From contig NZ_JAAWWS010000153.1 in assembly GCF_012272825.1 (NCBI RefSeq), positions 62,001 to 126,000 on the forward strand: DNA of 64,000 nucleotides. Direction: 5' to 3'. Both the position numbers and the translations under genes were made by a program. Source of the DNA: Wenzhouxiangella sp. XN79A. Lineage in GTDB: Bacteria; Pseudomonadota; Gammaproteobacteria; Xanthomonadales; Wenzhouxiangellaceae. Of this stretch, positions 38,701 to 40,287 are shown piece by piece. The number at the start of each line of letters is the position of its first letter. The stretch's first letter is position 1. Below the pieces are notes generated by a model. The model searched no databases and had not been told where the DNA came from. It worked only from the letters and a program-made list of their open reading frames with translations.

Positions 38701-39157
38701 CGACCGACTGAACAACGCCGTGGACCACGCCGGCATCGCTCCACAGTGCCTCGAGCTGGAGCTGACCGAGGCTGCCGCGCTGAAGGACCCGACGCTCGCC
38801 GAACAGACGATCGGCGCGCTGAGCGAGAACGGCTTTTCGCTGGCCATCGACGACTTCGGTTCCGGCTACTCGTCGATGAACTACCTCAAGCGCTTCGCCG
38901 TGAACTGCCTGAAGATCGATGCCGCCTTCATCCAGGACCTCGAATCCAGCCAGGACGATCGGGCCATCGTCCGCGCCATCATCCAGCTGGCTCACAGCCT
39001 CGGCATGCGCACCGTTGCCGAAGGCGTCGAGCGCGGCGCCCAGGTCGAGTTCCTGCGCGAACAGGGCTGCGACGCCATCCAGGGCTACTGGTTCGCCCGC
39101 CCGCTCGAAGTCGAAGCGTTCGAAACCTTCTGCAGGAACCACGACGCGCCCGACTGA
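35750..39157 (+). CDS. Membrane sensor with PAS, GAF, degenerate GGDEF and EAL domains (cyclic-di-GMP phosphodiesterase)
   Basis: 1135 residues. About seven transmembrane helices in the first ~260 residues form a MASE-like sensor (SALAWITIDLIAVAV and FGALFAGVFSFELVHAL segments recall MASE3). Then come a weak PAS-like segment (about 310-420), a GAF-like region (about 430-580), a clear PAS (about 600-710: NPILITDARSRIEYVNAAF, GYTREEVIGQNP) and GGDEF (about 725-870). Last is EAL (about 890-1130). The GGDEF signature reads SGDSF (about 786), so cyclase activity is unlikely. The EAL motifs are intact: EALIRWRH, ELTEAA, IDDFGSGYSS, KIDAAFI, VAEGVE, QGYWFARPL. Start chosen at 35750 because an AGGA lies 6 bases before it; GTG at 35852 is an alternative. 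Confidence 0.86.
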   Translation: MLKQSITREDSTGFRRFAWVQSSRGKKNTGERTHVVHPIHRSTAVRAATGVALCVLVAAALMLTPLSQPISRLAASALAWITIDLIAVAVSAMIAGAAWLHYLTRASDRIALFGALFAGVFSFELVHALQVNLLDTTRGHANGSYWFGAARTLAGMVLIAAALPERWFRALSPPAVLLIGLLAWLLLLTLILLAPAESTGRAAPIPTPGSMLLIALYLSAAALHAAWLLRPAPSGHAYLVAAGVVLAFGEAAIATAPADPGVGELLGHAFRVIGALFLIRALLLEIPRTRLRLPGVVAGDPAAGPEQLPDLLAEIDRSTRILHLQANPPDVLTGAAHALRGRRLDEILPDEAVDTCRAALAQVERSGIPQRASIEVGLPAGRRRIEVSVSRRTPQAGGEPTFTLLARSDGRPSTPAATDAGSAPSRLNAALLELHRQSASASENELLVSAASMAEQLTRSPIARLFRIGADGRLTPCTAQTGTGDTTVAQPIELARAGVWADGLRQQRPIVSNQPAPEPEAGSDPLGQLMRWISLPVSDDDEARLLLVVGNRDTAYCDRDVLALQVLANAAWSAVKRKRQDGRLRLLSIGVDQSPNPILITDARSRIEYVNAAFEAVTGYTREEVIGQNPSILASGQTPESTYRDMWQTLSTGQPWRGELINQRKNGQRFLEQALIYPVRAADGQVTHYLAHIRDITERREIESRVDRLTRFDQLTGLPNRTAIEETLEHLLSAPDPRLAVLWINLDNFKLVNESLGRDVGNLFLLETANRLRVELDENALLGRQSGDSFLVALPRASQSDSALCAHRLMDIIQTPTRVGRRELAVTASVGAALAPDDADNVDRLLRYAEAAMYDAKREGRNNLRFYSRRLQSVSERTLRLISGIGPALQRGEMRMVYQPQMNLADGRLIGAEALIRWRHAELGDIPPSEFIPLAEQGGLINTLGGWVIDAVTHQARAWRDAGLDVPVLAINLSASQVTQHDLIDRLNNAVDHAGIAPQCLELELTEAAALKDPTLAEQTIGALSENGFSLAIDDFGSGYSSMNYLKRFAVNCLKIDAAFIQDLESSQDDRAIVRAIIQLAHSLGMRTVAEGVERGAQVEFLREQGCDAIQGYWFARPLEVEAFETFCRNHDAPD

Positions 39158-39811
39158 CGCCGGCCGCGCCACGGTCGCTCGACGCCCGACTGCGAACGGC
39201 ACCGTGCAGTTGCAGGCACCGGACCCTGCAATCGCCGTCGTGGCCGGTGCGGCCGCCTCGAAACCGTCGTCGAAGATGCCCGCACCGCCGAGGATCTCGA
39301 CCCGCCAATTGTCTCCGGTCATCCGGCCATCGACGAAGAACGCATCGGGTTGGACCCCCCATGGATAACTGGCACCGAACTGCAGCCCGAACGACATCGG
39401 ACGCCCGACCGCGCGGAAATCGGGGTGCTGGCCGGGCAGCCCGAACTCGGCTTCGAGCAGCACCCGGTCCAGCACCTGCGACTGGCCAGCCTGGACGAAA
39501 CTCCCGGCGTCGGCGAATGCCAGGACCGAGCCGTCCGCCTGCGGCTGGAACATCACCAGTTGCGCGAAAATACCCTGCTCCGGCGGAACCATCGTCGCAC
39601 TGATGACTTCGGCATCGAGCATCCAGCGCACCGCGGCCACTCCATCGACCGTGGCCGGATCGAGCTGGAAATCGGCCGGCGTCGAAATCACCGGCGACAT
39701 CGCGCCGACGGCGAACTCCTGGCCGTAAGGCACGATGATCAGTCCAACACAGAGCCGGAGGATCAGCGAGCCAAGCGGTGAGCCTCGCGAATCACGGCTT
39801 TGCTCGGACAT
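38675..39811 (-). CDS. Putative exported protein of unknown function, C-terminus doubtful
   Basis: I do not recognise the family. The first ~185 residues look like a real protein: a charged start, a hydrophobic segment (LGSLILRLCVGLIIVPYG), then acidic, phenylalanine/valine-rich sequence with TPADFQLDPATVDGVAAVRWML and PDAFFVDGRMTGDNWRVEIL. At about residues 178-184 comes IFDDGFE, which resembles the xFxDGFE end of many exported proteins I recall from Xanthomonadales relatives. No stop follows. The frame continues through 39157 for 483 bases antisense to the EAL domain, and that part has the composition of a shadow frame. Either the gene lost its stop or frame near 39250, or the whole frame is spurious. 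Confidence 0.4.
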   Translation of the reverse strand: MSEQSRDSRGSPLGSLILRLCVGLIIVPYGQEFAVGAMSPVISTPADFQLDPATVDGVAAVRWMLDAEVISATMVPPEQGIFAQLVMFQPQADGSVLAFADAGSFVQAGQSQVLDRVLLEAEFGLPGQHPDFRAVGRPMSFGLQFGASYPWGVQPDAFFVDGRMTGDNWRVEILGGAGIFDDGFEAAAPATTAIAGSGACNCTVPFAVGRRATVARPASVGRVVVPAEGFERFDFERAGEPVALDGVAALFAQELDLGAALDAFGNGAHAEAVSQLDDGADDGPIVLAGFEVLDEGGIDLQAVHGEALEVVHRRVAGTEVVDGQRKAVLAQRADRLFGERRVLQRGSLGQLQLEALWSDAGVVHGVVQSVDQVMLGDL

Positions 39812-39955
39812 GAGTCACCTGCTCGAATTTTTCGTGGAACATGAAGAACCGGAACTGGACAAGACGATGAAACGGGCCTTCGGAGGGATTTCTCCATCGT
39901 GCCCGAATCCAGAGAAATGGCGGAGGTGGCGTAGAAGACAGTTATGACGGGAATG

Positions 39956-40103
39956 AAATTTCCTTCTCGGGGTTTCTTGGGTGCGCGGACAGCAGTGACG
40001 CGCGGAGCGCAGCGACCGCAGTGTGCCTATATGGCACATGAGGATCGTGAGCACCGAACGGCGCTGCTGGCCGTGTGCCCAAGGAAGCCTGAGAGGGAAA
40101 TTT
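39956..40103. repeat. 148-base foldback (palindromic) element abutting tRNA-Val
   Basis: The two halves are imperfect reverse complements around 40030. AAATTTCCTTCTC (39956-39968) pairs with GAGAGGGAAATTT (40091-40103). TTCTTGGG (39974-39981) pairs with CCCAAGGAA (40078-40086). The core TGTGCC (40022-40027) pairs with GGCACA (40033-40038) over TATAT. Arm positions are mirror-symmetric to the base. Its right end coincides with the last base of the tRNA CCA. Translations of the two strands resemble each other (both begin with KFPS and continue with LG-R), as expected of a palindrome. It is probably a non-autonomous repeat element; no transposase is nearby. Confidence 0.75.
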
Positions 40104-40179
40104 GGTGGGCGATGCTGGATTTGAACCAGCGACCTCTGCCATGTCAAGACAGCGCTCTAACCAACTGAGCTAATCGCCC
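40103..40179 (-). tRNA. tRNA-Val (anticodon GAC)
   Basis: A full cloverleaf is read on the minus strand. The acceptor GGGCGAT pairs with ATCGCCC. The D-arm is TAGCTCAGTTGGTTAGAGC. The anticodon stem-loop CTGTC-TTGACAT-GGCAG has anticodon GAC. The variable region is AGGTC, and the T-arm has GGTTCAAATCC. The discriminator base is A and CCA is encoded in the genome (down to 40103). It is 77 nt including CCA. Confidence 0.97.
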
Positions 40180-40196
40180 GTACAGCCAAGCCCGCA

Positions 40197-40225
40197 AAGA
40201 TACCAAACCGCCCCGAATTTGGCAA
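40197..40225 (-). promoter_or_regulatory. Promoter of tRNA-Val
   Basis: On the minus strand TTGCCA (40225-40220) and TATCTT (40202-40197) are separated by 17 bases. The sequence after the -10 box is GC-rich (TGCGGGC), the discriminator type seen at stringently controlled stable-RNA promoters. The tRNA begins about 18 bases downstream. Confidence 0.65.
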
Positions 40226-40287
40226 CACTCCGGTGAATTTTTTCACTCCGGATCGAACGCGCCCCGGTGCCCCGCTGCGGGCTTGCC

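Follow-up and report, generated by a model that had tools for sequence, protein, structure and literature searches.

What is the sequence that folds back on itself directly beyond the last base of a tRNA-Val gene in Wenzhouxiangella sp. XN79A? The original prediction saw in it one long imperfect hairpin ending at the tRNA's CCA, and took it for a non-autonomous mobile or REP-like unit, perhaps one that favours tRNA 3' ends and serves as the tRNA's terminator. Our results indicate that the foldback is one copy of a widespread, dispersed family of small mobile hairpins, usually found at gene ends.

The hairpin behind tRNA-Val

The window, by which we mean the whole stretch of 64,000 nucleotides analysed, contains a single end-to-end imperfect hairpin at 39956-40103, with a computed folding energy of -100.5 kcal/mol. 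In 200 dinucleotide shuffles the mean was -54.0 (sd 4.0), giving a z of -11.7, and none of the 200 folded as well. ARAGORN places tRNA-Val(GAC) at 40103-40179 on the minus strand (the Rfam tRNA model scores 71.4 bits at 40106-40179), and 40103 is therefore the A of its CCA. Since this last base of the tRNA lies in the outermost pair of the hairpin, the element proper is 39956-40102. The foldback thus has the extent and the right edge that had been described for it. Its parts are as follows.

39956..40102, minus strand (the strand homologous to Rfam sX9, co-directional with tRNA-Val): hairpin element of 147 bp, defined by fold, sequence and orthologues
39956..39998, no strand assigned: left arm of the outer helix, variable between clades with complementarity kept
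39999..40065, plus strand: conserved core, matched at 76.6 bits (E 4.9e-15) by R1, a covariance model of the 66-nt core built from 37 sequences that include the window copy
40022..40038, no strand assigned: terminal stem-loop TGTGCC-TATAT-GGCACA, whose pairs covary among copies
40066..40102, no strand assigned: right arm of the outer helix, directly beside the tRNA CCA, variable between clades with complementarity kept
40103..40179, minus strand: tRNA-Val(GAC) found by ARAGORN, whose final A (40103) is able to pair with 39956

The outer arms are AAATTTCC and GGAAATTT, and the predicted core pairing of TGTGCC (40022-40027) with GGCACA (40033-40038) is present. Conserved bulges occur in the inner core, which is asymmetric. 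The foldback is not among the 25 longest inverted repeats listed for the window, because that search extends arms without gaps. The next minus-strand ORF starts at 39811, so that about 145 bases separate it from the tRNA-Val hairpin. The KFPS-type ORF at 39944-40168 on the plus strand is a spurious frame across the hairpin and the tRNA antisense, ending in ...WWAMLDLNQRPLPCQDSALTN.

A dispersed family at gene ends

In a BLASTN search of its own genome and relatives the window element had one full copy, and several further matches were partial and fell in its centre; searches of plasmids and phages with the window copy gave no match. With R1 the same genome has 22 matches at E<=0.001 at about 11 sites, most of which hold head-to-tail arrays whose units repeat every 124-144 bases and in one case every 210. 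The core is present in 22 of the 61 genomes searched with R1, relatives having 0-49 copies and members of the same genus 3-49; the counts reach 49 (genome G002), 31 (G005) and 29 (G004), and 25 in a member of another family of the same order (G060). These numbers bear out the idea of a dispersed family, as opposed to a single-copy sequence. In an even sample of the phylum the core was found in 16 of 299 genomes. The exact core pattern occurs in species genomes, among the matches listed, in Lysobacterales, Burkholderiales, Thiobacillus, Gallionellaceae, Pseudomonas and others, and nearly all of the loci listed also score with R1. The unit is a 140-150 bp hairpin around the conserved 66-nt core, and members of the family occur in Lysobacterales, Burkholderiales, Pseudomonas and Enterobacterales; E. 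coli K-12 has them at four sites.

Several copies have features of their own. The insect symbionts Regiella and Fukatsuia (loci L079 and L132) carry relatives of the hairpin element, and the arms at L079 are nearly perfect long palindromes, CCGTAGCGAGTGG...CCACTCGCTACGG. The array at 1100-1960 of locus L223 (G000:C107), in the genome of the window and beside what appears to be the end of groEL, consists of degenerate cores in turn with short, GC-rich hairpins that resemble terminators, GAAACAAGAAACCCCGG...CCGGGG; the core may here have been taken up into a different repeat. A second tandem repeat, CTCGTCGTCCCGGGGCCGGCGCAGCCGGAACCCGGGA, lies behind the hairpin copy at the gap gene at 1685-2000 of locus L209 (G000:C50).

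The family also includes a sequence that already has a name. The Rfam model of sX9 (RF02228), described as a Xanthomonas sRNA, aligns on the opposite strand to the core and the adjoining arm. A copy from Pseudomonas oryzihabitans (L117) scores 86.6 bits against a cut-off of 44, and because this match overlaps the R1 match of the same copy we regard sX9 as a member of the hairpin family. Other members score 24-40 bits with the sX9 model, below the cut-off. The window copy is likewise below it (the Rfam search of the window gave the tRNA only, with nothing for sX9 at E<=1 between 39000 and 41000), and its link to the family is R1.

Evidence of movement comes from E. coli, in which one strain has four R1 copies. 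In K-12 MG1655 the R1 matches, each examined individually, lie at pyrH-frr, ffh-rpsP, glrK-qseG and ycbX-rlmL and are unannotated. The one clean empty/filled pair is at ycbX-rlmL, where a wastewater strain lacks 146 bp, that is, a 140-bp element plus one copy of the duplicated 6-bp target site TCTTAG. At pyrH-frr two strains lack 142 bp, with a target duplication that is not clean. The empty site there is a near-perfect dyad, GGGTAAGATTCCGCG-TAAGTAT-CGCGGGGGATCTTACCC, which is interrupted in the filled strains, and its intact state in the empty strains suggests that the empty state is ancestral. At ffh-rpsP the 112 bp missing from one strain lie directly behind the stop codon; the borders are less clean here, and so is the target duplication. 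Counted as matches over 80% or more of the query, and not as filled or empty sites, pyrH-frr is represented in 3,480, ffh-rpsP in 2,208 and ycbX-rlmL in 4,154 of about 5,375 E. coli genomes, and glrK-qseG is covered in all 5,375. Because strains differ in their copies, and because of the pair with the clean 6-bp duplication, we conclude that the element is, or was, mobile, which agrees with its prediction as a dispersed non-autonomous mobile unit. As in a MITE, the units are short, contain no coding gene, have inverted-repeat ends and occur in many copies, and an empty/filled pair (ycbX-rlmL) has a target-site duplication. No autonomous partner with the same ends was seen beside the hairpin copies inspected. 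One gene, lying between two inverted clusters at locus L110, was considered as an autonomous transposase and rejected; by eye its sequence resembles an MscS-type channel gene.

The proposed preference for tRNA 3' ends did not hold up: of 124 clusters in species genomes, only 3 have a tRNA within 300 nt, and what the copies actually adjoin is the 3' end of a gene, in most cases a stop codon. Placement was scored in 149 clusters, drawn from relatives and from species genomes (a set chosen by the exact core pattern); they were treated as independent although some share descent, and genes were called by a simple home-made codon-usage script. On the sX9 strand the upstream neighbour is co-directional with the element in 90 of these clusters and runs the opposite way in 37. 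Where it is co-directional, its stop codon precedes the core by 30-40 nt in 59 of 90 clusters; where it runs the opposite way, a gene start is found at that distance in 2 of 37. Among copies between tandem genes, 58 share the orientation of the genes and 16 have the opposite one (p 1e-6). With a short arm of about 34-36 nt, this puts the start of the hairpin within a few bases of the stop. The tRNA-Val copy is thus one case of adjoining a gene's functional end. One alternative origin of the outer arms, the host gene's own terminator stem, was dropped for most copies because the arms share a lineage consensus across loci.

The tRNA-Val copies and the upkeep of the hairpin

The hairpin is found directly after the tRNA-Val CCA in about 12 genomes of the same family, in two genera, and in degenerate form in one more. 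It is sometimes in arrays of four, and there are three sets of outer arms, each specific to a clade. When orthologous units from 10 genomes (145-148 nt) are aligned and placed on the structure of one unit, 89.2% of the cells pair. Double changes occur at 36 of the 59 pairs, in 112 cells compared with 35.5 in shuffles, and the pairing is lost when partners are slid by 1-3 bases. In the core 96.5% is paired, with 72 double-change cells compared with 22 in shuffles. Compensatory changes therefore link the arms, as had been expected of a genuine foldback. The tRNA-Val copy is an old one shared across two genera, in which pairing was kept while the arm sequence changed, and the orthologous copies form a natural series in which the sequence of a palindrome turns over and its pairing stays.

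RNA-level selection normally passes through G-U pairs. In the tRNA-Val arms, one-sided changes occupy 3 cells compared with the 112 double ones, and A-T pairs are replaced by G-C with hardly any G-T in between. In 125 copies, G-U accounts for only 4.7% of the outer-arm pairs. Since such intermediates are nearly absent, arm-to-arm copying of DNA is a serious alternative, and the switches suggest DNA-level copying between arms rather than RNA selection. Bulges and unpaired bases in the core, which are conserved among copies, cannot arise by arm copying and point to recognition by something.

The surroundings of the tRNA-Val copy vary. In several relatives tRNA-Val and the hairpin are followed by thrS; the window (39157-40267) has another ORF in that position, so that a rearrangement seems to have entered just beyond the element, and a dnaE-like gene is retained on the opposite side of it. 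At about 1166-1647 of locus L048 (G002:C48) a second tRNA-Val, with a CAC anticodon, has similar outer arms near its CCA; the left part of the core is replaced by other sequence, and there is again a tandem pair.

We think it probable that the element is a MITE-like, non-autonomous insertion of 140-150 bp belonging to the sX9 family and kept, for a putative function, as a 3'-end hairpin on the transcript. Insertion would be favoured, or best tolerated, at gene 3' ends, and the inserted hairpin would form, once transcribed, the 3' terminus of the RNA from the gene before it. There it may block 3' exonucleases or replace a terminator, much as has been proposed for YPAL, which is unrelated but of similar build (PMC2229807). 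At tRNA-Val the hairpin would define the 3' trailer and keep the tRNA apart from the gene that follows.

A lesser but substantial chance belongs to a selfish or inert palindrome that survives behind genes, where it is least harmful, and has no function at tRNA-Val. Slippage between the arms (quasi-palindrome correction) would copy one onto the other and so keep them complementary, as the rarity of one-sided changes and of G-U pairs would lead one to expect; the arrays, the scattered presence and the E. coli copy between the divergent genes ycbX and rlmL also fit. Arm-to-arm copying would, however, erase the bulges and unpaired bases conserved in the core, and the strand bias relative to the upstream gene also argues against an inert sequence, as does the fact that the element has stayed at one and the same base behind the CCA in two genera. 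A further reading we hold possible, if doubtful: in one family the palindrome would have become fixed at the tRNA-Val CCA as a permanent 3' processing or terminator module, its pairing kept by DNA copying that renews the arms, and the whole sX9 family, from E. coli to Burkholderiales, would be directed to gene 3' ends by an enzyme.

It is unlikely that the hairpin is simply the intrinsic terminator of the tRNA-Val gene, the role suggested for it in the original prediction. A strong hairpin directly after CCA is what such a terminator would look like, and of eight genomes of the family without the element at tRNA-Val, three have an ordinary terminator-like hairpin there (thrS lies within about 120 bases in five). 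Yet the window copy has no U-tract and the terminator scan finds no intrinsic terminator at the element. Among 133 single copies, five T in a row occur past the long arm in only 19 on the sX9 strand compared with 26 on the other strand. In genomes with the element no terminator-like hairpin was found between it and thrS, except for one about 600 nt away.

sX9 and other named repeats

The name sX9 implies a genuine trans-acting sRNA with its own promoter, a reading that the score of the Pseudomonas copy favours, as does the report that sX9 copies in Xanthomonas are expressed and induced by copper (PMC10924375). Read-through from the upstream gene can explain that expression, and tens of copies per genome, differences in presence among E. 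coli strains and a fixed position behind stop codons make an independent sRNA quite improbable. A REP or REPIN moved by a RAYT, a tyrosine transposase of the Y1_Tnp type, is very improbable even for a dispersed extragenic palindrome behind stop codons: the genome of the window has one Y1_Tnp gene, but R1 found no core in the flanks (about 1.5 kb) of the four Y1_Tnp genes examined, the member of another family with 25 cores (G060) has no Y1_Tnp match, and the unit is 140-150 bp, not 20-40. With no linked RAYT and no U-tract, neither a RAYT-driven REP nor an intrinsic terminator is supported.

Among known systems, REP/REPIN sequences are likewise extragenic, palindromic and multicopy, but they are defined by, among other features, a palindromic unit of 20-40 nt (PMC3733652), and no linked RAYT was found for the sX9 family. 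Another likeness is to palindromic, non-autonomous insertions such as YPAL or RU-2 (167-168 bp). The Yersinia palindromic sequence YPAL is a non-autonomous insertion with target duplications of variable size, targets sites at or beside dyad symmetry and may affect the stability of upstream transcripts (PMC2229807). As a sequence relative it was rejected, the 168-nt RU-2 (sequence from PMC2759123) aligning locally no better than shuffles. ERIC or RU-1 (127 bp) is also an intergenic, palindromic, MITE-like repeat of enterobacteria, but part of the ERIC sequence showed no greater similarity than shuffled sequence did. We assume that RSA of the older E. coli literature, about 152 bp long, may be the same repeat under another name. 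Kristensenii39 and Aldovae3, with five E. coli copies each (PMC2847712), are similar to the hairpin family in length and E. coli copy number, the two properties compared, and may be the same repeats as the E. coli members.

The nearest system remains sX9 itself, which has the same core and adjoining arm and whose model matches many copies of the family. It has been placed in the list of the 20 most prevalent bacterial sRNAs (PMC9029176), a position that a dispersed repeat would give. The E. coli filled/empty pairs bring within reach of experiment both the enzyme that moves such palindromes and the effect of a gene-end hairpin on RNA. While sX9 is described as an sRNA and its model spans about half of the hairpin, the hairpin family behaves as an insertion element; the supposed sRNA is thus better read as a mobile hairpin element, tied to unannotated insertions in E. 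coli K-12 that vary among strains.
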